Shown here: positions 33,831 to 52,649 of the stretch, one piece after another | Numbering within the stretch: the stretch's first letter is position 1 | Layout: every line of letters begins with the position of its first letter | Notes under the pieces: generated by a model | Told to the model about the DNA's origin: nothing | The model's database searches: none | Seen by the model: only the letters and a program-made list of their open reading frames with translations | From: Conexibacter woesei Iso977N | Lineage (GTDB): Bacteria > Actinomycetota > Thermoleophilia > Solirubrobacterales > Solirubrobacteraceae | Direction: 5' to 3' | Assembly: GCF_000424625.1 (NCBI RefSeq) | Contig: NZ_AUKG01000002.1 | Location: forward strand, 372,001 to 436,000 | Length of the DNA: 64,000 nucleotides | Translations under genes and position numbers: made by a program

Positions 33831-34346
33831 ATGCCCGAGCTCCCCACGGTCCGCCTTCAGATCCTCGACGCGACCGCGCTGCAGGCGCTGGTCTCCGGCA
33901 ACCTGCGTGCCGCGAGCGACGCGGCCGGCGTCGCGCTGCCGATCGAGTTCCTCAACGACACGTGGCTGTGGACGCTGCGCCTCGGCCAGATGATCGGCGA
34001 GCCCGAGGTCACGCCGTGGCTCGTGCGCGTGATCGTCCCGGAGACCGGGCCGGGCGCGGGCACGGCCGTCGGCCACGCCGGCTACCACGGCGCGCCCGAC
34101 GAGCGCGGCATGGTCGAGATCGGCTACCGGATCATCCCGGCGATGCGCCGCAACGGCTACGCGCAGGCCGCGGTCACCGAGCTGCTGGCGTGGGCGAGGG
34201 CCAACGGCGCGACGATCGCGCGCGCCTCGATCAGCCCCGGCAACGCGCGTTCGCTGGCGATCGCGGCGGCCTTCGGCTTCGTCGAGGTCGGCGAGCAGAT
34301 CGACGAGATCGACGGTCGGGAACTGGTCTTCGAGCGGTCGATCTGA
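33831..34346 (+). CDS. GNAT-family N-acetyltransferase
   Basis: A 171-residue acetyltransferase of the RimJ-like kind. VEIGYRIIPAMRRNGYAQAA is the beta4/motif A acetyl-CoA site and ISPGNARSLAIAAAFGFVEVG is motif B. ATG 33831 is chosen because the domain starts shortly after; an upstream start at 33786 would add 15 unlikely residues. The gap 33681-33830 holds only a short GCAT...ATGC inverted repeat. The P450 gene follows 14 bases downstream, across a palindrome. Confidence 0.82.
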   Translation: MPELPTVRLQILDATALQALVSGNLRAASDAAGVALPIEFLNDTWLWTLRLGQMIGEPEVTPWLVRVIVPETGPGAGTAVGHAGYHGAPDERGMVEIGYRIIPAMRRNGYAQAAVTELLAWARANGATIARASISPGNARSLAIAAAFGFVEVGEQIDEIDGRELVFERSI

Positions 34347-34356
34347 CACAGTGTCA
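34344..34356. promoter_or_regulatory. perfect palindrome TGACACAGTGTCA before the P450 gene
   Basis: TGACAC-A-GTGTCA is a perfect 13-bp inverted repeat. It starts at the stop codon of the GNAT gene and ends four bases before the P450 ATG. It looks like a TetR- or GntR-type operator. No regulator gene is adjacent, so a regulator elsewhere would be needed. Confidence 0.55.
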
Positions 34357-34360
34357 AACC

Positions 34361-35593
34361 ATGTCCGCGGAACCGCTTGATCTCAAGGACGTCAACGTCA
34401 CCGAGCGCGAGAACTGGCCGGACGGCCCGCCGCACGAGCTCTTCAAGCGGATGCGCGGGGGGTGCCCGGTCCACTGGACCGAGAAGATCACCGAGTACCC
34501 CGACGAGAAGGGCTTCTGGTCGGTCACGACCGCTGAGGATGTCCACGCGGTCTCGCGCGACTGGGAGACCTACTCCTCGGCGACCGGCTTCACGTTGCTG
34601 ACCGACGCGATCCTGCCGCTGGCGCTCGCGCAGGGCATGTTCATCGGGATGGACCCGCCGCGCCACGACCGCCTCAAGGCGCTGTTCCAGCGCGGCTTCA
34701 CGCCCAAGCGCACCGCCGAGCACGAGCCCGCGATCCGCGAGATCACCACCGCCGTGCTCGACCGCCTCGAGGGCCGCGAGACCGCCGACCTCGTCAGCGA
34801 CGTCGCCCAGCCGGTCGTCGCGCGCGTCATCGGGTCGTTCATGGGCACCGCGCCCGAGGACGACGCGATCTGGGCGCGGCTGATGAACCAGACGCTCGGC
34901 GCCGGCGACCCGGACATGAACCCCGAGGGCGTCCAGACCGTGATGGAGCGCGACGTGCCGGAGATCTTCCGGCGCTGCCAGCTGCTGATCGAGGAGCGGC
35001 GCGAGCGCCCGACCGAGGACTTGATGTCCGTGTTGGTCCACGCCGACATCGACGGCGAGCAGCTGACCGACGTCGAGATCGTCATGGGCTTCTTCCTGCT
35101 CGTCGCCGCGGGCAACGACTCCACGAAGGCGACGTACTCGTCGGCGATGCGCGCGCTGATGGAGGACTCGTCGCAGCGCGACCTGCTGCTCGCCGACATG
35201 TCGCTCGTCCCGAGCGCCGTCGAGGAGGCGCTGCGGATGTTCCCCGCGTTCGCGCACTTCCGCCGCACGGCGACGCGCGACGTCGAGCTCAACGGCGCGC
35301 AGATCAAGGCGGGCGACAAGGTCGCCATGTGGTACGTGTCGTCCAACCGCGACGAGACGCGCTACGAGGACCCGGACCGCTTCGACGTCACCCGCAACCC
35401 GGAGCACCAGGCCTTCGGCGCGGGCGGCCGCCACTTCTGCCTCGGGACCGCGCTGGCGCGCCTGGAGCTGCGGATCCTGATCGAGGAGACGCTGAAGCGC
35501 TACCCGGCGATGGAGATCGCCGGCGAGCCCCACTACGCCGAGTCGCCGTTCATCAACCAGCTCAAGAACCTCCCGGTGCGGCTCAACGCGTAG
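34361..35593 (+). CDS. cytochrome P450
   Basis: A 410-residue bacterial class I P450. The I-helix has AAGNDSTK (the AGxxT oxygen-activation motif), the K-helix EEALR (ExxR), and the heme loop FGAGGRHFCLG with the axial Cys360. There is no membrane anchor, as in soluble actinobacterial P450s that hydroxylate terpenes, steroids or fatty acids. The substrate is unknown. Two acyl-CoA dehydrogenase genes follow, which suggests a role in breakdown of a lipid or terpenoid. Redox partners are not adjacent. Confidence 0.95.
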   Translation: MSAEPLDLKDVNVTERENWPDGPPHELFKRMRGGCPVHWTEKITEYPDEKGFWSVTTAEDVHAVSRDWETYSSATGFTLLTDAILPLALAQGMFIGMDPPRHDRLKALFQRGFTPKRTAEHEPAIREITTAVLDRLEGRETADLVSDVAQPVVARVIGSFMGTAPEDDAIWARLMNQTLGAGDPDMNPEGVQTVMERDVPEIFRRCQLLIEERRERPTEDLMSVLVHADIDGEQLTDVEIVMGFFLLVAAGNDSTKATYSSAMRALMEDSSQRDLLLADMSLVPSAVEEALRMFPAFAHFRRTATRDVELNGAQIKAGDKVAMWYVSSNRDETRYEDPDRFDVTRNPEHQAFGAGGRHFCLGTALARLELRILIEETLKRYPAMEIAGEPHYAESPFINQLKNLPVRLNA

Positions 35594-35648
35594 GGGAGCG
35601 CGCGGCCCTGGCGGACAGGTCGCCTGTCTTCTGAACGACGGCGGCCAG

Positions 35649-35677
35649 TTGACCCAAGAAACTCTTGCGTCTACTGT
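35649..35677 (+). promoter_or_regulatory. sigma70-type promoter for a leaderless message
   Basis: -35 TTGACC (35649-35654), exactly 17 bp, -10 TACTGT (35672-35677). The ATG at 35686 lies eight bases after the -10 box, where transcription should begin. One of the best-formed promoters in the window. Confidence 0.75.
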
Positions 35678-35685
35678 TCGGCGTG

Positions 35686-37005
35686 ATGACCGTCGCCGAA
35701 CGATCGATGGGGCTTGGGCTCCGGGCGCTGAACCGCCTGGCCGGCTCCGACATGGTGGACCGGCTCGGGGCGCGCAAGCCCGCCGAGCGCGTCCTGTACC
35801 GCGCCACGCGCGATGGCTTCAAGGTCGTCGGGCGCGCGGGCCGGACGTTCTCCGCCGCGCAGCGGCTCGGGAAGCCCGCGCGGCCGCGGAAGTCCGGCGG
35901 GACGGGGCTGTTCGACCTCACGCCGAGCGACGAGCAGCAGATGCTCGTCGAGGCGTGGCGCGACTTCGCGTCGGCGCGCCTGCGCACCGCCGCGGCCGCC
36001 GCCGAGAGGGGCGAGGGCCGCGACGAGGTCTTCAAGGAGGCCGGCGAGCTCGGGCTGACGATGCTCGGCGTGCCCGAGGAGCTGGGCGGCGCGATCTCGG
36101 AGCGCAGCGCGGTCACCGCGCTGATGGCCGCCGAGACGCTCGCCCACGGCGACGCCGGCCTGACCGTCGGCGCGCTGGCGCCCGCCGCGGTTGCCACCGC
36201 GCTCGCGCTCTGGGGCGACGCCGACCAGCAGGCGACCTACCTGCCCGCGCTGGTCTCCGACGACATCCCGGCGGCCGCGCTGGCGATCGCCGAGCCGCGC
36301 CCGCTGTTCAACCCCAACAACCTCGAGACCGTCGCGCGCCGCGCGACCGGCGGCGGCTACATCCTCGACGGGCTGAAGACGCTCGTCCCGCGGGCCGAGG
36401 ACGCCGAGCTGCTGATCGTCGCCGCGCGCCTGGAGGGCTCGCAGACGTCCGCGCTGTTCCTGGTCGAACCCAGGGCCGGCGGCGTCGCCGTCAAGGAGGA
36501 CCCGGCGATGGGCCTGCGCGGCGCGGGCCTCGGCCGCCTCAAGCTCGAAGATGTACATGTCGGTGCGGAGGCGCTGCTGGGCGCCGCCGATCCCGCGGTC
36601 TACGCCGAGCTGATCGCCCGCTCGCGCCTGGCCTGGGCCGGGATCGCCGCCGGCGCCGGCCGCGCGGTCCTCGACTACGTCATCCCCTACGTGAACGAGC
36701 GGATCGCCTTCGGCGAGCCGGTCAGCCACCGCCAGGCGGTCGCGTTCACGGTCTCGAACGTCGCGATCGAGCTGGAGGGCCTGCGCCTCGTCGCGCTGCG
36801 CGCCGCCGCCCGCGCCGACGCCGAGCAGGACTTCTCCCGCGAGGCGGCGCTGGCGCGCCAGCTCGCGGCCCGCTACGGCATGCAGATCGGCTCCGAGGGC
36901 GTCCAGCTGCTCGGCGGCGCCGGCTACATCGCCGAGCATCCCGTCGAACGCTGGTACCGCGACCTGCGGGCCACCGGCCTCATGGAAGGCGTGCTGGTCG
37001 TCTGA
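35686..37005 (+). CDS. acyl-CoA dehydrogenase family protein with N-terminal extension
   Basis: A 439-residue acyl-CoA dehydrogenase homologue. About 80 residues precede the usual start of the fold (LTPSDEQQMLVEAWRDFA), including basic, Arg-rich stretches. The dehydrogenase part keeps GVPEELGG, LLGGAGYIAEHPVERWYRD and a final LMEG, so the C-terminal Glu is present, but the protein stops five residues later. It overlaps the next dehydrogenase gene by one base (TGATG). The two probably form one complex. The leaderless promoter is described separately. Confidence 0.85.
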   Translation: MTVAERSMGLGLRALNRLAGSDMVDRLGARKPAERVLYRATRDGFKVVGRAGRTFSAAQRLGKPARPRKSGGTGLFDLTPSDEQQMLVEAWRDFASARLRTAAAAAERGEGRDEVFKEAGELGLTMLGVPEELGGAISERSAVTALMAAETLAHGDAGLTVGALAPAAVATALALWGDADQQATYLPALVSDDIPAAALAIAEPRPLFNPNNLETVARRATGGGYILDGLKTLVPRAEDAELLIVAARLEGSQTSALFLVEPRAGGVAVKEDPAMGLRGAGLGRLKLEDVHVGAEALLGAADPAVYAELIARSRLAWAGIAAGAGRAVLDYVIPYVNERIAFGEPVSHRQAVAFTVSNVAIELEGLRLVALRAAARADAEQDFSREAALARQLAARYGMQIGSEGVQLLGGAGYIAEHPVERWYRDLRATGLMEGVLVV

Positions 37006-38231
37006 TGATCAACCTCGAGACCCCCAAGAAGTTCGGCCCGCTGATCGCCCAGGCGCGACAGGTGGCCGACGAGGTCTTCCGGCCGATCTCGCGCAGGTAC
37101 GACCGCGACGAGCACGAGCGGCCCAAGGAGCTCGACATGCTCGCCGCGCTGGTCGACGGCATGAACGACGGCTCCGACATGGGCGGCGCGGGCGCCGCCG
37201 GCGTGCGGCGGTCGAGCAACGGCAACGGCAAGAAGGCCGACGACGGCGGCACCCGCAACGGGTCGAACCTCTCGACCGCGCTGTCGATCATGGAGCTGTG
37301 CCGCGGCGACGTCGGCCTGCTGCTGTCGATGCCGCGCCAGGGGCTGGGCAACTCGGCGATCGCATCGGTCGCCGACGACGAGCAGCTCGAGCGCTTCGCC
37401 GGCCGCTGGGCGGCGATGGCGATCACCGAGCCCGAGGCCGGCAGCGACTCCGCCGCGATCCGGACGACCGCGGTCCTCGACGGTGAGGACTACGTGCTCA
37501 ACGGCGAGAAGATCTACGTGACGGCCGGCGAGCGCGCCGACCTCGTGGTCGTCTGGGCGACGCTGGACCGCACGAAGGGCCGCGGGGCGATCAAGTCGTT
37601 CGTCGTCGAGCGCTCCAACCCCGGGCTGGTCCTCGACCGCCTGGAGCACAAGCTCGGCATCCGCGCGTCGGACACCGCGGCGTTCAGCCTCGTCGACTGC
37701 CGCGTGCCGAAGGAGAACCTGCTCGGCCCGCCCGGCATCGCCGACACCAACGGCTTCGCGGGCGCGATGCAGACGTTCGACAACACGCGCCCGCTGGTCG
37801 CCGCGATGGCCGTCGGCCTGACGCGCGGCTGCCTGGAGGAGACCAGGAAGCTCCTGGAGCAGGCGGGCGTGACGATCGACCACGGCGCGCCGGTCGCGAC
37901 GCAGAGCGCGGCGGCCGCCGAGTTCATCCAGATGGACGCCGACTACGAGTCCGCGTACCTGCTGACGATGCAGGCCGCGTGGATGGCCGACAACTCGAAG
38001 CCCAACTCGCTGCAGGCCTCGATGGCCAAGGCGAAGGCGGGGCGGACGTGCGTGGACGTCGCGCTGCGCTGCGTCGAGCTGGCGGGCGCGCTCGGCTACA
38101 GCGAGGACCTGCTGCTGGAGAAGTGGGCGCGCGACGCGAAGATCCTGGACATCTTCGAGGGCACGCAGCAGATCCAGCTGCTGATCATCGCGCGGCAGCT
38201 CCTGGGGTTGAGTAGCGCTCAGCTTCGTTGA
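37005..38231 (+). CDS. acyl-CoA dehydrogenase with central low-complexity insert
   Basis: A 408-residue acyl-CoA dehydrogenase. ITEPEAGSDSAAIRTTA and VTAGERADLVVVWATLD are the beta-domain FAD/substrate motifs; the C-terminal catalytic segment is ILDIFEGTQQIQ with the standard Glu. Between residues about 58 and 92 an insert rich in Gly, Ser, Asn and Lys replaces part of the N-terminal helical domain, probably a flexible loop. It is coupled to the preceding dehydrogenase gene and ends in a terminator. Confidence 0.88.
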   Translation: MINLETPKKFGPLIAQARQVADEVFRPISRRYDRDEHERPKELDMLAALVDGMNDGSDMGGAGAAGVRRSSNGNGKKADDGGTRNGSNLSTALSIMELCRGDVGLLLSMPRQGLGNSAIASVADDEQLERFAGRWAAMAITEPEAGSDSAAIRTTAVLDGEDYVLNGEKIYVTAGERADLVVVWATLDRTKGRGAIKSFVVERSNPGLVLDRLEHKLGIRASDTAAFSLVDCRVPKENLLGPPGIADTNGFAGAMQTFDNTRPLVAAMAVGLTRGCLEETRKLLEQAGVTIDHGAPVATQSAAAAEFIQMDADYESAYLLTMQAAWMADNSKPNSLQASMAKAKAGRTCVDVALRCVELAGALGYSEDLLLEKWARDAKILDIFEGTQQIQLLIIARQLLGLSSAQLR

Positions 38232-38242
38232 GCTTATTTTTC
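38217..38242 (+). terminator. intrinsic terminator with T-rich tail
   Basis: GCTCA (38217-38221), loop GCTTCGT, TGAGC (38229-38233), then TTATTTTTC. It overlaps the stop of the acyl-CoA dehydrogenase gene. The only hairpin in the window followed by a real T-tract. Confidence 0.6.
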
Positions 38243-38375
38243 TCCTGCACGTCTCTAGTTTTGCTGACCGGGCGCCGATCACCGTGTCGTGCGCCCGAAA
38301 ACGGCTCATAACGCCCCATCGCATCGCCCGTCCTGGATCTGCCGCGACCAACCCGAGCGGGAGCGGTTCCTGGAC

Positions 38376-39368
38376 ATGCACGCGCGCATCCTGCCCGCGC
38401 ACCAGCGCGTGCTCGGGCTGATCGCGCTGCTGCTGATCCCGACGATCCCGTTCGACAGCATCTACGCGCCGATCCCGCTGGTCTGCGCGGTGATCGGCTA
38501 CGCGTGGGCGCAGCACAACGCGACGAGGTTCGACCGGCCGGAGCTGGTCATCGCCGCCGGGCTGCTGTTCGGGCAGGCGATGCTGGCGACGGCGATCGTG
38601 GTCGACGCCCGCCAGCACACGGTCGGGCTGGCGATCATGATCTGGCCGCTGGTGGCCGCGGGCGGGCGCTTCTCGTCGCGCGTCGTGTGGGTCTTCACGG
38701 CGTACACGCTGGTCCTGATGTGCGGCGCGTCGCTGGCCTTCGGCGGCGCGGCGGTCCTGCACGACCCGATCCTCCTGACCCTCCCGGTCGCGACGCTGGT
38801 CGCGGTCGTGATGATGTCGGCGGTCATCCGCGACTCCGACGCGCAGCACCGCAGCGCCGCGATCCTCGACGGGCTGACCGGGATGCTGAACCGGACCGCG
38901 CTGGCCGCGCGCACGCACGAGATCGAGCACCAGTCGGCGGTGACCGGCGGGCCGGTCGCGGTGATCGTCGGCGACGTCGACCACTTCAAGGCGGTCAACG
39001 ACTCCCACGGGCACGGCGTGGGGGACCACGTGCTCCGGGACCTCGCGTACGTGATCCGCAAGGAGCTGCGCGCGTTCGACCTGGCCTACCGCGTGGGCGG
39101 CGAGGAGTTCGCGGTGATCATGCCGGGCGCCGAGGAGGGCGCGGCGGCCGAGCTGGCCGAGCGGCTGCGCGCGGCGATCGCGGCAGGGCCGATCGGCGGG
39201 CTGGCGGTGACGATGTCCTTCGGCGTCGCGGCCGCGGCACCGGGCACGTTCGTGTGGGACGAGTCCTACGCGCGCGCCGACGCCGCGCTGTACCTGGCCA
39301 AGCAGGACGGGCGCAACTGCGTCCGGCTGGCGTCGGGCGCCGTCGAGCCGCTGGTGCTCGCGGCCTAG
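38376..39368 (+). CDS. membrane diguanylate cyclase (GGDEF domain)
   Basis: About 330 residues. Five or six hydrophobic segments cover roughly residues 10-155, then a GGDEF domain with DGLTGMLNR, GDVDHFKAVND and the active-site RVGGEEF. RAFD lies five residues ahead of GGEEF, the RxxD inhibitory c-di-GMP site. It should make c-di-GMP and be feedback-inhibited. ATG 38376 is preferred because the first helix begins about ten residues later; GTG 38289 is possible. Its stop overlaps the convergent reverse transcriptase stop in CTAG. Confidence 0.9.
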   Translation: MHARILPAHQRVLGLIALLLIPTIPFDSIYAPIPLVCAVIGYAWAQHNATRFDRPELVIAAGLLFGQAMLATAIVVDARQHTVGLAIMIWPLVAAGGRFSSRVVWVFTAYTLVLMCGASLAFGGAAVLHDPILLTLPVATLVAVVMMSAVIRDSDAQHRSAAILDGLTGMLNRTALAARTHEIEHQSAVTGGPVAVIVGDVDHFKAVNDSHGHGVGDHVLRDLAYVIRKELRAFDLAYRVGGEEFAVIMPGAEEGAAAELAERLRAAIAAGPIGGLAVTMSFGVAAAAPGTFVWDESYARADAALYLAKQDGRNCVRLASGAVEPLVLAA

Positions 39369-40735
39369 CGCGGCGACGCCGGCCAGGCGATCTGCTCGAA
39401 GCGCGCGCGGAGCTTCGCGCCGCGCTGGGGGTTGACGTGCTCGACCCAGGCGATCCGGCCGCGCAGGTGCGCGCGGAAATCCGGGACGTGGGCGCGGTTC
39501 TCGGCGTGCGGGTCGGCGGCGCGGGCGGCGTTGTGGAGGATCGCCCTGAGGCGGTCGTACTCGTCGCGGGCGATGTTGGGGTGGTCGTTGACGACGATGC
39601 CGGTCACGCGCTGGCGCTGGGCGGCGACCATGATGGTGGTCTTGGTCTCGTTGAGCCGCAGGCCCTGGCCGCGGACGATCGCGCGCACGGTCTGCGTGGT
39701 CCGCTGCGCGTGGCGCGCGAGCGCGCGGTCGCCGGAGAGGACGAGGTCGTCGGCGTAGCGCGTGTAGGTCGCGCCGAGCTTGACGGCGAGCGCGGCCATC
39801 CGGCGGTCGAGCGTGAACGCGCAGAGGTTGGCCAGCAGCGGCGAGGTCGGCGCGCCCTGGGGGAGGTGGGGCGCGGCGAGACGGCGGCCGAGCAGGACGT
39901 GCTGCCGGTGCAGCGCGGGGTCGGCGGGCGCCGGGACGTCGGCCCACGCGCCGGGCGGGACCGCGTTGGTGGTCAGGCCGGTCAGCGCGTGGGCGACCGC
40001 CTCGGGGTAGCCCGCCAGCCGGAAGATCCCGTAGACGCGGCCCGCGGGGAGCGAGACGAAGAAGTCGCGGACGTCGAAGCGCAGGACCGCGGCCGCGCCG
40101 GCGTGGCGCCGGGCATGTTGTAGGACATCGCGTCCGGGCACGAACCCGTAGGCCGCGTCGTGGGCCGGGACGTGGACGAGCAGCTTGTGCAGGATCCGGC
40201 GCTGGATGGCCTTCAGGCGCGCCTTCGGCTGCTCCAGGAAGCGCACGGGCGCGCCGGGGCGCGCCGACCACGCGTACGTGTAGTGGCGCAGCCGCCGGTC
40301 GTCGGCCCGCCGCTCCCGGGACTGCACGTCGGCGAACCACGCCAGCTCGCCGTGCGACAGCGCCAGCCAGTCCGCGAGGTCGCCCGCCGTGTCGAGCTCC
40401 GGGATCGCGGGCCACGGCCGCCTGCCGGCCATCGCGCCCGGCGCGACGAGCCGGTGCTTGGGCGGGAACGGCGCCGCGCGGCGCGCGTCGATGGTCGCCG
40501 CGACGAACGCCGCCAGCTCGCGCGGGCGGTCGCGCGGTGGGTGGGCGTACGCCGCCAGCACGCGATCGACTTCCCGCCGCAGCCATCGCAGCCCCGGGAC
40601 CGCCTCGACGCCCAGCGCATCGTGGCCCCGCTGGATCATCCCCGGCCGCGTCCACGCGCCCGCCAGGAACGCGTCGGCGAGCGCCGCCGCCGCGTCGGAG
40701 CGAAGGGGCTGCGGCTGGTCGGGAGGCGGCGGCAT
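39365..40735 (-). CDS. retron-type reverse transcriptase
   Basis: A 456-residue RNA-directed DNA polymerase. The catalytic acids are Asp221 (RFDVRDFF) and Asp329-Asp330 in YTRYADDL. LPQGAPTSP (291-299) is the family template-grip motif and RQRVTGIVVN (VTG at 377-379) is the thumb signature of retron enzymes. The retron NAxxH motif appears as HARRH (207-211). About 150 N-terminal residues precede the RT core, as in the 485-residue myxobacterial Mx162 enzyme, and IPELDTAGDLADWL to LAWFADVQSRE resembles its RT-preceding segment. No maturase or HNH domain. ATG 40735 lies 13 bases after the a2 repeat of the RNA element, which supports this start. Confidence 0.93.
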   Translation of the reverse strand: MPPPPDQPQPLRSDAAAALADAFLAGAWTRPGMIQRGHDALGVEAVPGLRWLRREVDRVLAAYAHPPRDRPRELAAFVAATIDARRAAPFPPKHRLVAPGAMAGRRPWPAIPELDTAGDLADWLALSHGELAWFADVQSRERRADDRRLRHYTYAWSARPGAPVRFLEQPKARLKAIQRRILHKLLVHVPAHDAAYGFVPGRDVLQHARRHAGAAAVLRFDVRDFFVSLPAGRVYGIFRLAGYPEAVAHALTGLTTNAVPPGAWADVPAPADPALHRQHVLLGRRLAAPHLPQGAPTSPLLANLCAFTLDRRMAALAVKLGATYTRYADDLVLSGDRALARHAQRTTQTVRAIVRGQGLRLNETKTTIMVAAQRQRVTGIVVNDHPNIARDEYDRLRAILHNAARAADPHAENRAHVPDFRAHLRGRIAWVEHVNPQRGAKLRARFEQIAWPASPR

Positions 40736-40748
40736 GACGGACGTGGCG

Positions 40749-40764
40749 GCGGCGCCGGGCCCGA
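40749..40764 (-). repeat. a2 arm of the retron inverted repeat
   Basis: Perfect 16-base complement of 40895-40910. Pairing of a1 with a2 would bring the branching G next to the 3' end of the msd, as needed to prime reverse transcription. Confidence 0.8.
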
Positions 40765-40894
40765 CGGTCCCGTGTCGTGCGTGCGGGGCATGGCGGCTCG
40801 TCGCCGCAGCCCGCACGCGCTGCCGTGCCGTGGTTCCTGCTGATCCCCGGGGTGACCCCGGAGAGGTGGCCCGCCCGAGGGCGGGCGCACCGGC

Positions 40895-40910
40895 TCGGGC
40901 CCGGCGCCGC
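40895..40910 (-). repeat. a1 arm of the retron inverted repeat
   Basis: Perfect 16-base complement of 40749-40764. It begins ten bases after a TATGCT -10 box, at the expected 5' end of the transcript. Confidence 0.8.
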
Positions 40911-40920
40911 GCTGCGCGGC

Positions 40921-40926
40921 AGCATA
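40921..40926 (-). promoter_or_regulatory. -10 box of the candidate retron
   Basis: TATGCT on the minus strand, ending ten bases before a1. It lies in the 38-base gap between the upstream gene's stop (40949) and a1. No convincing -35 is visible at 16-18 bp. Confidence 0.5.
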
Positions 40927-40948: not shown

Positions 40949-41467
40949 TCAGCGTTCCGGGCGGTCCGGCATCTCCCACTCCTCGTCGCCGAGGGTGACC
41001 AGGACCGGCTCGCCGCCGCGGGCGGTCACGGTCAGGTCGATGCCGGCCGTGATCGTCTGGTAGACCGCGATCGCCACCGAGCGCCCGCCGAGCAGTGCGG
41101 CCAGCTCGCGCATCGCGTCGGCGAGCATGTCCAGCCCGCCGAGCGTGCCGGTCACCTGGCCGGTCTCGGGGTCGACCTCGAACGGCGGCAGCTGGCGCAG
41201 CTCGATCGCGCCGCCGAAGGACTCGGCCTCCAGCTCGATCGCGTGCGGCAGGTGCATGATGCGGTCGCCGATCCGGACCTCGACCGGCGCCAGCCGGCCG
41301 ACGTCGACCAGCGCGGCAGGCGAATCCTGCGCGCCGTCCACGACGACCGCGACGCGCAGCGCGCCGGACCGGTGCAGCACGTCGCGCAGCGTCTCGACGA
41401 CCGCGTCCAGCGGGCCGACGGTCGCGACGAGGTCGATCTCCTCGGCTTCCTGTTCAGGCTCTTCCAT
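40949..41467 (-). CDS. hypothetical protein, 172 aa
   Basis: An acidic, soluble protein with no signal peptide. Visible segments: an N-terminal acidic helix, LRVAVVVDG, a beta-rich middle (APVEVRIGDRIMHLPHAIELEAESFGG) and a hydrophobic helix (GGLDMLADAMRELAALLGG) before SVAIAVYQTI. I do not recognise the family. ATG 41467 is chosen for the AGGG just ahead of it; ATG 41479 is possible. It lies immediately upstream of the retron promoter on the same strand, so an involvement as a retron partner cannot be excluded, though nothing in it resembles a known retron effector. Confidence 0.7.
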   Translation of the reverse strand: MEEPEQEAEEIDLVATVGPLDAVVETLRDVLHRSGALRVAVVVDGAQDSPAALVDVGRLAPVEVRIGDRIMHLPHAIELEAESFGGAIELRQLPPFEVDPETGQVTGTLGGLDMLADAMRELAALLGGRSVAIAVYQTITAGIDLTVTARGGEPVLVTLGDEEWEMPDRPER

Positions 41468-41525
41468 CGCCCTCAGCATGCCACGCCGCGCGCTGTGAGA
41501 GGATCCCGCTCCGGAGGAGCTGGAC

Positions 41526-42668
41526 TTGGACTCGATGGACACCGCGCAGGCAGCGGAGGCCGTGGTCGGCGGGGACGCCGGCCACCTCGCCCGGCTGTTC
41601 GCCATGTCGCCCGACCTGTTGGCGGCGGCGGGCTTCGACGGGCTGCTCAAGCTGTTCAACGACGCATGGGAGACGCAGCTCGGCTTCTCGCGCGAGGAGC
41701 TGGCGGTCAAGCCGTACCTGGAGCTCGTCCATCCTGAGGACCGCGACGAGACGCGCGTGCAGATCGGGCGCCTCGCGCAGGGCGAGACGATCGCCGAGTA
41801 CGTCTGCCGCCTGGTCCGCAAGGACGGCACGGTCGTCCACATGGCGTGGTCGGGCGGGCCCGGCGACGAGGCGTTCTACATCGTCGGGCGCGACGTCACC
41901 GACCGGCTGGCGATGGAGCACGAGCTCGAGCAGCGCGCCGAGCGGCTGCTGACCACCAACGGCGAGCTGCAGGACTTCGCCTACACCGCGTCGCACGACC
42001 TGTCCGAGCCGCTGCGGATGGTCGCGTCGTTCCTGGGGCTGCTGGAGCGGCGCTCGGGCGGCGCGCTCGACGAGCGCTCGCGGGAGTACCTGCGCCAGGC
42101 GTCTGACGGCGCGGTCCGGATGCGTGCGCTGATCGACGACCTGCTCCAGTACTCGAGGGTCGCCAACGAGGAGCCGCGCAGGGAGCAGGTCGACCTCCGC
42201 GGGCTGGTCGACGGCGTCCTGGCGTTCCTGGCGCCCGCGATCCAGGAGCAGGGCGCGGTCGTCACCGTCGAGGACCTGCCGACGCTAGAGGCCGAACCGA
42301 CGCAGCTCGCCCAGCTGCTGCAGAACCTGATCGGCAACGCGGTCAAGTTCCACCCGCCCGAGCAGGTGCCGCACGTGCGCGTCAGCGCGCGCAGGACGAT
42401 CGGCGGCTGCGTCGTGACCGTCTCCGACGACGGGATCGGGATCCCGATCGCCGACCAGGAGCGCATCTTCGCGATGTTCACCCGCCTGCACGGCCGCGAC
42501 GAGTACGCCGGGACCGGCATCGGCCTGGCGATCTGCCGCCGCATCGCCGAGCGCCACGGCGGCCGCATCTACGTCGAGTCCGACGGCGAGGGCCAGGGCT
42601 CGGCGTTCCACACGCTGCTGCCCGACACGCCGACCGCGCCGGGAACCCCGCGCGGCGACGCGCGCTAG
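41526..42668 (+). CDS. PAS-domain sensor histidine kinase
   Basis: A 380-residue soluble kinase. A PAS domain spans about residues 22-128 (FNDAWETQLGFSREEL, LVHPEDRDE, GRDVTDR), followed by a short coiled coil, the phosphoacceptor H-box ASHDLSEPLRM (His157) and an ATPase domain with NLIGNAVKFH (N), SDDGIGIP (G1), FAMFTRL (F) and GTGIGLAICRRIAERHGG (G2). The start is TTG 41526, six bases after GGAGGAG (41513-41519); ATG 41535 would be too far from it. No response-regulator gene is adjacent, so it is an orphan kinase. Divergent from the 172-residue hypothetical gene. Confidence 0.92.
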   Translation: MDSMDTAQAAEAVVGGDAGHLARLFAMSPDLLAAAGFDGLLKLFNDAWETQLGFSREELAVKPYLELVHPEDRDETRVQIGRLAQGETIAEYVCRLVRKDGTVVHMAWSGGPGDEAFYIVGRDVTDRLAMEHELEQRAERLLTTNGELQDFAYTASHDLSEPLRMVASFLGLLERRSGGALDERSREYLRQASDGAVRMRALIDDLLQYSRVANEEPRREQVDLRGLVDGVLAFLAPAIQEQGAVVTVEDLPTLEAEPTQLAQLLQNLIGNAVKFHPPEQVPHVRVSARRTIGGCVVTVSDDGIGIPIADQERIFAMFTRLHGRDEYAGTGIGLAICRRIAERHGGRIYVESDGEGQGSAFHTLLPDTPTAPGTPRGDAR

Positions 42669-42674
42669 CCGCCC

Positions 42675-43379
42675 CTACGACGGCAGGTCGAAGCGCGCGG
42701 TCCGGATCCGGTGGGCGGTCGCGGTTGCCCAGGGCGCGCCGAGGGCGTCGAGGGCTGAGGCGGACTCCTCGACGTCGTAGGTCACGCGGCGCAGCGTGAC
42801 CGCGTCGATGTCCTCGGTGTCGTCCCACGTCGCGTAGGCGGCGCGGGTGTCGCCGTCCCAGGGCAGGCCGACCGAGCCCGGGTTGACGAGCTCGGCGCCG
42901 CCCTCGGCCGAGCGCAGGAACTGCAGGTGCGTGTGGCCGAAGACGATCCGCGCCTGCGGGATCTCCAGCAGCATCGCGGCGTCCTCAGCGCTCGCCTCCG
43001 GCCCGAAGGCGACGACGTCGGACTGCGGCGAGGCGTGCACGAAGAGCGTGTCGCCGAGCACGACCTGCCTCGGCAGCCCGCCGAGCTCCTGGACCGCGCC
43101 CGGCCCGAGCGCCTCGCGCACGAACGCGTTGGCGCCCCTGATCACCGGCTGGTCGAACGCCGACCCCGGATCGGCCTGCCAGCGCTCCCAGTTGCCCTGG
43201 ATCCACGTCGTGTCCTCGGGCAGCCCGCGCAGGATCTCCACGCACTCGACCGGCCACGCGCCGAACGCCGAGTAGTCGCCGCCGAGCAGGAAGCGGGTCG
43301 CGCCATGCTCGCGCGCGTCGGCCAGGACCGCCTCCAGCGCGGGCCGGTTGCCGTGGATGTCATACAAGATCGCGAGCAT
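42675..43379 (-). CDS. metallophosphoesterase (YfcE/MJ0936-like)
   Basis: A 234-residue calcineurin-like phosphoesterase. The metal-binding series is complete apart from a changed third motif: YDIHGN (Asp7, His9), GGDY, GNWE where most have GNH(E/D), FVHASP and FGHTH. Such enzymes cleave phosphodiesters or phosphomonoesters with two metal ions. The substrate is unknown. The stop lies seven bases from the convergent histidine kinase stop. It is divergent from the GNAT gene with 20 bases between starts. Confidence 0.88.
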   Translation of the reverse strand: MLAILYDIHGNRPALEAVLADAREHGATRFLLGGDYSAFGAWPVECVEILRGLPEDTTWIQGNWERWQADPGSAFDQPVIRGANAFVREALGPGAVQELGGLPRQVVLGDTLFVHASPQSDVVAFGPEASAEDAAMLLEIPQARIVFGHTHLQFLRSAEGGAELVNPGSVGLPWDGDTRAAYATWDDTEDIDAVTLRRVTYDVEESASALDALGAPWATATAHRIRTARFDLPS

Positions 43380-43399
43380 GTCGCCATCATGCCTGGCCG

Positions 43400-44002
43400 A
43401 TGGAGCTCCGTGGACCGCATCTGACCCTGCGCCTGCCGCACCCCGACGACGCCCCCGCCCTGCTGGCGCTGGCCTCCGACCCGGAGGTGACGCGCTGGTT
43501 CTCGTGGGGCCCGTACACGAGCGTCGATCAGCCGATCGCGTGGATCGAGGCCCAGGCGGCGCGGCGCGAGGCGGGCGACCAGCTCGACTTCGTCGTCCAC
43601 GACCGCGAGCACGGGCCGATCGGCGTCACCGGCCTCGGGGAGCTGTCACGGCGCGACCGCCGCGCGATGGTCGGCACGTGGTTCGGCCGCGAGCACTGGG
43701 GCACCGGCGCCAACGCCGAGTCCAAGGCGCTGATCGCCCACGCCGCGTTCGCGATCTGCGGGCTGGAGCGCCTCGGGGCGTACTCCAACCCCGACAACGC
43801 GCGCAGCGCCAACGCGCTGGAGCGCGTCGGCTTCACGCGCGAGGGGACGCTGCGCGGCTGGCACCGCCACGGCCCGCAGCAGCTCGACGTCCACATCTTC
43901 GGGATGCTGCGCGGCGACTGGGAGGACGGGCCGCTGCACGACGTCAAGGCGGCGGTGATCGGCGTCCCTCCGGCGCCCTGGCTGCTAGGAGATGAGGCGT
44001 GA
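43400..44002 (+). CDS. RimJ/RimL-type GNAT acetyltransferase
   Basis: A 200-residue GNAT. LRLPHPDDAPALLALASDPEVTRWF at the N-terminus, GTWFGREHWGTGANAESKALIAHAAF as the acetyl-CoA motif and NPDNARSANALERVGF as motif B place it with ribosomal-protein/aminoglycoside type acetyltransferases. Its stop overlaps the start of the ABC ATPase gene (GTGA), so it is the first gene of an operon with the ABC exporter that follows, an arrangement sometimes seen in self-resistance loci; this is only suggestive. Confidence 0.87.
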   Translation: MELRGPHLTLRLPHPDDAPALLALASDPEVTRWFSWGPYTSVDQPIAWIEAQAARREAGDQLDFVVHDREHGPIGVTGLGELSRRDRRAMVGTWFGREHWGTGANAESKALIAHAAFAICGLERLGAYSNPDNARSANALERVGFTREGTLRGWHRHGPQQLDVHIFGMLRGDWEDGPLHDVKAAVIGVPPAPWLLGDEA

Positions 44003-44709
44003 GCACCGATGCCCCGCCCGCCGTCGCCGCCCTCGAGGTCGCCGGCCTGACCCGCAGCTACGGCCGCCTCGTCGGCCTGCACCCGTTCGACCTGACCCTC
44101 CAGGCCGGCGAGTGCGTCGCGCTGATCGGCGCCAACGGGTCCGGCAAGTCCACCGCGGTCCGCACGATCGCCGGGCTCCTGGAGCCGACCGAGGGGACCG
44201 TCCGGATCTGCGGCCACGACCCGCACGACGAGCCCGACGCCGAGCAGGCGCGCGCACTGCTGGCGCTCGTCCCCGACACGCCGCTGCTCTACGACGACCT
44301 GACGGTCCGCCAGCACCTGGAGCTGACCGCGCTCGCCCACGGTGTCGCGGGCGACGGGGCCGACGAGCGGATCGACGCGCTGCTGGAGCGCCTCGACCTC
44401 ACGGCGCGCGCCGGCTTCCTGCCGACCGAGCTGTCGCGCGGCATGCGCCAGAAGACCGGCCTGGCCAACGCGCTGATCCGGCCGAGCAAGGTGATGATCC
44501 TGGACGAGCCCGTCGTCGGCCTCGACCCGCCGTCGCAGGAGCTGCTCGGCGTCGTGCTGCGCGAGGCCAAGGCCGCCGGGACCGCGATCCTGATGACCAC
44601 GCACCAGATGTACTTCGCCGAGGGCCTGGCCGACCGCGCCGTCGTGCTCGCCGAGGGCGGGATCGTCGACCAGGGCCCCTGGGACGAGGTGCGCGCGCGT
44701 GGCCACTGA
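43999..44709 (+). CDS. ABC transporter ATP-binding protein
   Basis: A 236-residue ABC ATPase. Walker A GANGSGKST (about residues 43-51), signature LSRGM in place of LSGGQ, Walker B VMILDEPVVGLD, and a switch His in MTTHQM. The altered signature resembles drug-exporter and ABC-2 ATPases. The start is GTG 43999, overlapping the GNAT stop. The stop overlaps the next gene by 11 bases. It pairs with the 533-residue membrane protein. Confidence 0.92.
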   Translation: MSTDAPPAVAALEVAGLTRSYGRLVGLHPFDLTLQAGECVALIGANGSGKSTAVRTIAGLLEPTEGTVRICGHDPHDEPDAEQARALLALVPDTPLLYDDLTVRQHLELTALAHGVAGDGADERIDALLERLDLTARAGFLPTELSRGMRQKTGLANALIRPSKVMILDEPVVGLDPPSQELLGVVLREAKAAGTAILMTTHQMYFAEGLADRAVVLAEGGIVDQGPWDEVRARGH

Positions 44710-50481: not shown

Positions 50482-52649
50482 ACCCAGATCCTCAGATGAC
50501 CCAAGAGTCCATCCGCGACATCGAGGCGCACCCCGCGCCGCCCCCGCCGCCGTCGGACCTCGACGCCAAAGAGCTGTACATCAACCGCGAGCTGAGCTGG
50601 GTCGACTTCAACGACCGAGTCCTACAACTCGCCGAGGATCCGGCCCAGCCGCTGCTGGAGCGCTGCAAGTTCGCGGCGATCTTCGAGTCCAACCTCGACG
50701 AGTTCTTCATGATCCGCGTCGCCGGCCTGCACGACCAGGTCGACGCGGGGATCACCGCGCCCAAGCTCGACGGCCGCACGCCGTCGGAGACGATCGACGC
50801 GATCCGCGCGAAGGTGCTGGACCTGAAGTCGCGCCAGTGCAAGACGCTCTCGCACGAGCTGCGCCCGCAGCTGGCCGAGCACGACATCAACCTGGTGTCG
50901 ATCGACGAGGTCTCCGCGGACGCGCGCCGCGCGCTCGATCACCGCTTCCGGCGCCAGATCTTCCCGGTCCTGACCCCGCTGGCCGTCGGCCTCGGGCGGC
51001 CGTTCCCCTACATCTCGAACCTGTCGCTGTCGCTGGCGGTTCTGATCAGGGACCCGGTCGGCGGCCACATCACGTTCGCGCGCGTCAAGGTGCCGAAGGA
51101 GATGCTGCCGCGGTTCGTGGCGCTGGAGGACGAGCCGACGACGTTCGTCCCGCTCGAGGAGCTGATCGCCGCAAACCTGCAGTCGCTGTTCCCGGGCATG
51201 GAGGTCATCGAGCACGGCGTCTTCCGGGTCACGCGCGACGCGGACTTCGAGATCAGCGACGAGGCCGACGACCTGCTGACCGCGGTCGAGGACGAGCTGC
51301 GCCGCCGCCGCTTCGGGGAAGTTGTACGGGTTGAGGTCGACTCGCAGATGGCGACGTCGCTGCGCGACGCGCTGACCGAGGCGCTGGAGGTCGAGGAGCG
51401 CCAGATCTACGAGACCAACGACCTGCTGGACATGACGGACCTCTGGCAGATCGTCGGCCTCAAGGGCCACGACGACCTCCGCGACGAGCCGTGGTCGTCG
51501 GTCACGCAGCCGCGCCTGCGGCCCGAGGAGCACCACGCCAAGGCCGACATCTTCGCCGCGATGCGCCAGGGCGACGTCCTGGTCCACCACCCCTACGACT
51601 CGTTCTCGACCTCGGTCGGGCGCTTCGTGGAGCAGGCCGCCAACGACCCGGACGTCCTGGCGATCAAGCTCACGATCTACCGGACCAGCGACGACACGCC
51701 GCTGGTCCCGGCGCTGATCCGCGCGACCGAGCGCGGCAAGCAGGCCGTGTGCCTGGTGGAGCTGAAGGCGCGCTTCGACGAGCGGGCGAACATCGAGTGG
51801 GCGCGCAAGCTGGAGGAGACCGGCGTCCACGTCGTCTACGGCCATCCGGCGCTGAAGACGCACGCCAAGTGCATCCTCGTCGTCCGCCGCGAGGGCGACG
51901 GGGTCCGCCACTACCTGCACGTCGGGACCGGCAACTACCACCCGAAGACCGCGCGGTTGTACACCGACTTCGGCCTGTTCACGACCGACGAGCGGCTCGG
52001 CTCCGACGTCGCCGACATGTTCAACTTCCTGACCGGCTACGCGCGGCCGCGCCGGTACCGCAAGGCCCTGATCGCGCCGGACCACCTGCGCGACGGGATC
52101 GTCGACGAGATCGAGAGGACGATCGCGGCCAAGGAGGCCGGCAGGCCCGCGCGGATCCAGATGAAGATGAACTCCTTGGTGGACCGCACGTGCATCAAGG
52201 CGCTCTACCGCGCGTCGCAGGCGGGCGTGAAGGTCGACCTCAACATCCGCGGGATCTGCTGCCTGGTGCCGGGCATCCCGGGGGTCAGCGAGAACGTCCG
52301 CGTGGTCTCGATCGTCGGGCGCTTCCTGGAGCACTCGCGGATCTACGCGTTCGAGCGCGGCGAGGAGCAGCTGGTGCTGATCGGGTCCGCCGACCTGATG
52401 CCGCGCAACCTCGACACGCGCGTCGAGCTGGTCGTGCCGGTCGAGGACGCGGTCCTGCGCGACGACGTGCTCGACACGCTGGAGCGCTCGTTCGCCGACG
52501 ACACCCACGCCTGGGACCTCGACACCGAGGGCACCTGGACCCGCGCCGTCCGCGACCCCGACGAGCCCGAGCCCCGCGACCTCCAGCGCGAGCTGATGCT
52601 CGGCCACACCGCCCGCGCCGCCGAGCGGGACGCGTCGAGCACGTCGTAG
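50478..52649 (+). CDS. ppk1: polyphosphate kinase 1
   Basis: A 723-residue PPK1. All domains are present: the N-terminal LYINRELSWVDFNDRVL, the head domain, and two C-terminal phospholipase-D-like domains. The autophosphorylated His is His462 in ALKTHAKCILV; LHVGTGNYHPKTARLYTDFGLF and IKLTIYRT are ATP-binding segments; a second catalytic His lies in FLEHSRIYAF. It polymerises ATP gamma-phosphate into polyphosphate, reversibly. AGGAG precedes the ATG, which overlaps the CHAD stop. The ppx-CHAD-CHAD-ppk1 order points to one polyphosphate operon. Confidence 0.97.
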   Translation: MNPDPQMTQESIRDIEAHPAPPPPPSDLDAKELYINRELSWVDFNDRVLQLAEDPAQPLLERCKFAAIFESNLDEFFMIRVAGLHDQVDAGITAPKLDGRTPSETIDAIRAKVLDLKSRQCKTLSHELRPQLAEHDINLVSIDEVSADARRALDHRFRRQIFPVLTPLAVGLGRPFPYISNLSLSLAVLIRDPVGGHITFARVKVPKEMLPRFVALEDEPTTFVPLEELIAANLQSLFPGMEVIEHGVFRVTRDADFEISDEADDLLTAVEDELRRRRFGEVVRVEVDSQMATSLRDALTEALEVEERQIYETNDLLDMTDLWQIVGLKGHDDLRDEPWSSVTQPRLRPEEHHAKADIFAAMRQGDVLVHHPYDSFSTSVGRFVEQAANDPDVLAIKLTIYRTSDDTPLVPALIRATERGKQAVCLVELKARFDERANIEWARKLEETGVHVVYGHPALKTHAKCILVVRREGDGVRHYLHVGTGNYHPKTARLYTDFGLFTTDERLGSDVADMFNFLTGYARPRRYRKALIAPDHLRDGIVDEIERTIAAKEAGRPARIQMKMNSLVDRTCIKALYRASQAGVKVDLNIRGICCLVPGIPGVSENVRVVSIVGRFLEHSRIYAFERGEEQLVLIGSADLMPRNLDTRVELVVPVEDAVLRDDVLDTLERSFADDTHAWDLDTEGTWTRAVRDPDEPEPRDLQRELMLGHTARAAERDASSTS

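Follow-up and report, generated by a model that had tools for sequence, protein, structure and literature searches.

In retrons, the reverse transcriptase (RT) recognizes the msr portion of a dedicated RNA, the 2'-OH of a guanosine primes DNA synthesis, and the msd portion is copied into a DNA hairpin attached to the msr (PMC6868368). Most characterized retrons work together with an effector, either as a protein or as a fused domain (PMC12262390, PMC12548924), and some have no clear effector association (PMC8867640). What the effector-less retrons do is a question that dates from the first discovery of msDNA in myxobacteria.

We analyzed a 64,000-nt stretch of the Conexibacter woesei Iso977N genome (assembly GCF_000424625.1, contig NZ_AUKG01000002.1, positions 372,001-436,000, forward strand; hereafter the window), in which an earlier note had read a retron. 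The base-level description in that note was correct at every base checked. We interpret the element as an intact two-part retron, composed of an RNA and an RT, that very probably makes a branched RNA-DNA molecule. Our confidence in retron biochemistry for this element, with branched msDNA as the predicted product, is high, and it refers to the biochemistry and excludes any cellular function. Retrons are a known kind of element, and this RT is already matched by PADLOC profiles. In the literature searched, there appears to be no description of the RNA family, of its occurrence across Actinomycetota and in some Burkholderiales, or of the clean two-part cassette, the surveys of Mestre 2020 and Khan 2024 lying outside this comparison.

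Features of the retron locus, in window coordinates. The strand is left empty for the cassette as a whole.
Feature	Coordinates	Strand	Basis
Whole cassette, absent in a same-genus genome	39379..40960		Empty site in L108
-10 promoter element TATGCT	40921..40926	-	TANNNT at the matching place in 35/35 related loci
a1 repeat (5' arm)	40895..40910	-	Perfect 16-bp inverted repeat, covarying with a2
Predicted branching guanosine (GAGC)	40894..40894	-	First base past the a1/a2 stem
Predicted msr RNA, ~75 nt, end approximate	40821..40894	-	Fold and family alignment
msr hairpin 1, sequence variable	40865..40891	-	Fold
msr hairpin 2, near-invariant CTCCGGGGNNACCCCGGGG	40844..40864	-	Family alignment; 99.6% of cells paired
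Predicted msd template, DNA ~56-65 nt, DNA 3' end approximate	40765..40820	-	Position between msr and a2
msd stem-loop	40779..40818	-	Compensatory changes in 8/12 pairs of two msd helices
a2 repeat (3' arm)	40749..40764	-	Perfect repeat and a1/a2 covariation
Retron reverse transcriptase, 456 aa	39365..40735	-	PADLOC RT_other 1.5e-163, RT_outgroup 2.5e-153; AlphaFold2; Ec86 similarity
Conserved N-terminal four-helix domain, residues 9-87	40475..40711	-	Predicted in both structure models
YADD catalytic motif	39746..39757	-	Sequence motif
VTG motif, start of region Y	39599..39607	-	Residues 377-379; V[TC]G in most relatives

The a1 arm (40910-40895) reads GCGGCGCCGGGCCCGA and, together with its partner arm (40764-40749), encloses 130 bases and spans 162 bases from end to end on the minus strand, which confirms the perfect 16-bp repeat and 162-base segment described earlier. 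The other reported landmarks are also where they were placed: G 40894 directly follows a1, within GAGC, as the G in AGC context; the TATGCT lies ten bases before the first arm, at 40926-40921; and the ATG of the RT, at 40735, lies 13 bases past the second arm. The minimum free energy fold of 40736-40915 shows the a1/a2 stem plus the two short hairpins and one long hairpin that had been claimed. Its energy is -122.1 kcal/mol compared with -100.2 for shuffles, a gain of 22 kcal/mol (z -5.2; 0/200). A perfect 16-bp repeat with a loop of 80-200 nt occurs once in the 64-kb window, where an order-1 Markov simulation expects 0.03; the next best in the window, at 52462-52647, is a perfect inverted repeat of 14 bp that encloses a 158-nt loop. 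A search of Rfam with the RNA returned no match at the gathering cut-off or at E up to 1.

Counting partial and weak matches, related RTs turned up on 29 GTDB contigs and in 28 of 201 genomes from the order. The RNA upstream of the RT can be aligned as one family across 35 loci. These loci share one order of parts: an a1 ending in CGA is followed by the guanosine and a hairpin of variable sequence, then by the near-invariant hairpin and a linker, and finally by the msd stem and a GTCG with which a2 opens. The guanosine just inside a1 is conserved in all 35, as CGAG (TGAG in L003), and the branch-site context is AAGC in Undibacterium and Burkholderia. In 35/35 loci a TANNNT element precedes the branch guanosine by 28-34 nt (composition-matched shuffles: mean 1.8, maximum 7). 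Because its position is fixed in this way, transcription probably starts at, or close to, the first a1 base.

The stems of this RNA have changed in step. Each locus pairs its own a1 and a2 with a mean score of 14.9, against 7.0 when partners are swapped (0/20000 permutations, and 0/50000 with one representative per a1 group), and RNAalifold detected double changes in 15 of 25 pairs. In a second alignment (A4), in which anchors place the a1 of the Arthrobacter group, 89.8% of cells are paired compared with 77.6% after shuffling and at most 46% with partners slid. Changes on both sides occur in 15 of its 29 pairs, and its covariation score is 0.282 versus 0.084 shuffled (0/500 shuffles); columns 1-4, the outer a1/a2 pairs, are often unpaired in this gap-free alignment. 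The msd helices are 91-97% paired. The long hairpin and the repeats have a very high GC content, and hairpin 2 of the msr is almost invariant and so yields no covariation evidence. Thus, for the check in relatives proposed earlier, the a1/a2 and msd stems covary and hairpin 2 is uninformative.

A covariance model built on 33 loci matched held-out loci in Burkholderia pyrrocinia, Burkholderia arboris, Tsukamurella, Dietzia, Undibacterium and two more actinobacterial genomes. In these loci the RNA lies directly before the RT, with about 20-35 bases between the end of the model and the RT start in the four that were measured. The model gave no match in the type III-A retron loci examined, nor in the empty sites described below. 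Within the order, the RNA is present in 11 of 101 genomes, one copy each, namely 10 with a clear RT N-terminal domain and one (G010) with an RT remnant. Judged by sequence comparison, this RNA has been conserved as a functional element.

Several loci depart from the common form. In G010, a shortened retron RNA (L095, 4935-5033) sits beside the RT remnant and has the appearance of a decaying element. Geodermatophilus africanus (L021, 4828-4989) carries an outlier RNA that scores weakly against the model (28 bits), has an atypical a1/a2 and shows one more hairpin close to a2; its RT is present. In two Geodermatophilaceae MAGs (L024 and L025) the RNA is intact and the RT frame seems split in two, through assembly error or decay.

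The RT belongs with retron RTs by profile, structure and phylogeny. The best-fitting PADLOC profiles are RT_other, at 543 bits, and RT_outgroup, at 509 bits, both of which cover its whole length; the next RT profiles, type XIII (281 bits) and III-A (256 bits), reach about half the top score. The group II maturase profile TIGR04416 gives 50.1 bits, below its cut-off of 300, the Drt2 profile gives 45 bits, and RVT_1 is the only Pfam family found. The AlphaFold2 model (pLDDT 92) has the Ec86 RT as its nearest solved structure (Z 28.0 over 305 residues, 28% identity); retron RTs take all of the top 14 PDB places, and RTs of the group II, G2L4 and DGR kinds fall below Z 20. In the tree, the window RT and 18 relatives group at 99/99, a long and poorly placed Ec48-type branch also falling inside, and group II RTs lie outside on a branch of length 3.5. 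We rejected the Ec48-type RT as a family member, its placement being a long-branch artefact (branch 4.3, support 85/18). A search of viral contigs gave no relative, and phage records contain distant retron RTs only.

The YADD, LPQGAPTSP and VTG motifs reported earlier are each present in the open reading frame. The earlier note had also singled out a change of NAxxH to HARRH in region X. The change is there, and it is not a special feature: across 27 aligned relatives the histidine never varies and the alanine hardly does, and the asparagine position, which is changed in most of them, holds N, H, G, F, Y or A. HARRH is therefore ordinary variation of a family whose RTs share about 38-55% identity. 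The full NAXXH is found in 14 of 16 verified retrons, the asparagine being changed in Mx65 and Ec48 (PMC6868368), so this residue is not defining. Overall, the retron reading is supported on each of the points checked, which were the a1/a2 and msd covariation, the placement of the RT away from group II introns and DGRs, and the adjoining of RNA and RT in relatives.

About 105 residues precede the RT core, and within them the four-helix domain is predicted with pLDDT above 90 in the helices. This domain matched no Pfam family, no PDB entry by sequence and no clear PDB fold; the best Z was 4.4 and Foldseek gave no match below E 3, which is not proof of a new fold. Among the 101 genomes searched it was clearly found only within this RT family, with no free-standing copies. 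Its nearly invariant residues are A16, A22, W28, W51, P67, D69 and R72, of which the W, P, D and R would seem to fit a surface or a core better than a catalytic center. The domain is the element's only candidate for an effector or docking function. Effector-associated domain EAD1 was rejected: it matched one relative weakly (E 0.08) and none in 61 genomes of the order, where the control also gave no match.

The limits of the cassette are given by an empty site. In a same-genus genome, locus L108 aligns to window positions 34007-39378 and 40961-44699 (87% and 82% identity) with 8 bp between the two flanks, so the cassette is about 1582 bp and comprises promoter, RNA and RT with no further gene. 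Of two further same-genus genomes, one is likewise empty at this site and the other retains part of the RT in decayed form. That piece (L109 6039-6299, genome G144) has 50% identity and an internal stop and lies at the syntenic site, which indicates loss by decay in a sister species. Beside the cassette, a GGDEF diguanylate cyclase gene (38289-39368, plus strand) is convergent with the RT gene, their stops overlapping by 4 bp (39365-39368), and a gene of about 172 codons without a Pfam match (40949-41464, minus strand) flanks the empty site and is present in 61 of 81 family genomes.

Neither an effector gene nor a fused effector domain, which would mark a tripartite defense retron (types I-XIII), is present in the cassette. 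The neighborhood contains acyl-CoA dehydrogenases, the GGDEF protein, a P450, a histidine kinase and an ABC transporter and is not a defense island. Across the loci of different clades we found no common neighbor gene and no hidden effector. A recurrent neighbor in Arthrobacter was considered and rejected as an effector; inferred from its sequence, it reads like a NUDIX hydrolase, and it reflects local synteny only. Plasmid-borne relatives are also solitary and are annotated merely as reverse transcriptase family proteins.

Sequence and comparison place the promoter, the RNA and, directly downstream, the RT in one transcription unit. The RT would bind the msr, the a1/a2 stem would present G 40894, and the 2'-OH of this guanosine would prime DNA synthesis. 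The msd would then be copied from about 40765 toward 40820, yielding a DNA hairpin of ~56-65 nt on an msr RNA of ~75 nt, held within the RT complex; the predicted DNA begins near CGGTCCCGTG (also given as CGGTCCCGTGTCGTGCG). The branch and the precise ends of the DNA are inferred from established retron biochemistry. Far less surely than the biochemistry, the complex may need no partner gene in the element and may act through the N-terminal domain of the RT, either by docking a host-encoded protein or by a change of state when the msDNA is disturbed.

Phage defense, through the N-terminal domain or a host partner, is the function we favor, with low confidence. In its most specific form, this would be a widespread effector-less family in which the four-helix domain reads the state of the msDNA and acts, a proposal that we regard as speculative and, taken by itself, doubtful. 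If true, an entire defense unit would consist of one gene and one RNA in 1.58 kb.

Three alternatives bear on function. The element could be part of a tripartite system whose effector is encoded elsewhere in the genome, unlinked. Most characterized retrons do act with an effector (PMC12262390, PMC12548924), and this element has none in cis; however, the 1.58-kb cassette is gained and lost as a whole, with a patchy distribution and no common neighbor across clades, and the 101 genomes hold no free-standing N-terminal domain. We consider an unlinked effector possible though improbable. Equally, the msDNA might serve a role other than defense, or the element might be near-neutral and persist by occasional transfer. 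Its solitary position outside defense islands, the decayed remnant at the matching site in a sister species, retention at the same site among Arthrobacter and the precedent of retrons without a clear effector association (PMC8867640) all fit such a history, to which we would give only a modest chance: selection has kept the RNA structure and the RT, with compensatory changes, across relatives whose RTs are only ~38-55% identical. In the third alternative, the N-terminal domain is itself the effector, making this a single-gene retron akin to RT-Toprim or RT-TIR fusions with a domain of no known kind. The domain is conserved, predicted to fold and tied to the RT family, and the element has no other extra part, but the domain has only ~80 aa, lacks a catalytic-looking set of invariant polar residues and matches no toxin or enzyme fold, and we think this unlikely. 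The possibility that the repeat and hairpins are merely a GC-rich regulatory structure (the region is 80% GC, where strong folds are common) next to an RT of another class, such as a group II intron, DGR or DRT enzyme, is highly improbable and already contradicted by the uniqueness of the 16-bp repeat in the window, by covariation that 0/500 shuffles reached, by a retron profile score of 543 bits versus 50 for group II and 45 for Drt2, and by the group II RTs lying outside in the tree.

The element offers a minimal system for probing what lone retrons do. Because the empty site delimits the unit, the RNA structure is backed by covariation and some relatives can be cultured (Arthrobacter, Agreia, Nocardioides, Kineococcus and Burkholderia), the question of function can be tested by moving or deleting 1.6 kb. 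The locus also adds a retron RNA family without an Rfam model, and an RT, native to high-GC actinobacteria, that could potentially be used for DNA writing.

Compared with known systems, the element combines familiar and distinct parts. The PADLOC profiles RT_outgroup and RT_other (PDLC03740, PDLC02949), which are protein profiles only, match residues 8-454 of the RT and thus include its N-terminal part. Ec86 (Eco1) has the same RT fold and a separate effector (title of 7v9x), whereas this element has none; alignment of the Ec86 chain begins only near residue 66 of our RT, and the modeled four-helix domain has no clear counterpart there. The nearest retron group among those sampled in the tree is type III-A, whose loci, where examined, carry an upstream hypothetical gene that is absent here. 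Plasmid-borne III-A-like retron RTs in Phaeobacter, Sulfitobacter, Shigella and Rhizobium (L118, L120, L124 and L126) each have an upstream hypothetical gene. An N-terminal extension of the RT is common to this element, Mx162, Mx65, Sa163 and Ne144, the myxobacterial retrons being compared by description only. The earlier note had called the locus Mx162-like: the long N-terminus bears this out, whereas the branch site is CAGC in Mx162 (PMC6868368) and GAGC here, and the shared figure of 162 is a coincidence, referring in Mx162 to the 162-nt DNA that gives it its name and here to an unrelated a1-a2 span. Mx65 shares with our element both the GAGC branch site and the lost asparagine of NAXXH (PMC6868368). 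By its sequence, then, with GAGC at the branch and a predicted DNA of ~56-65 nt, this retron looks more like Mx65.
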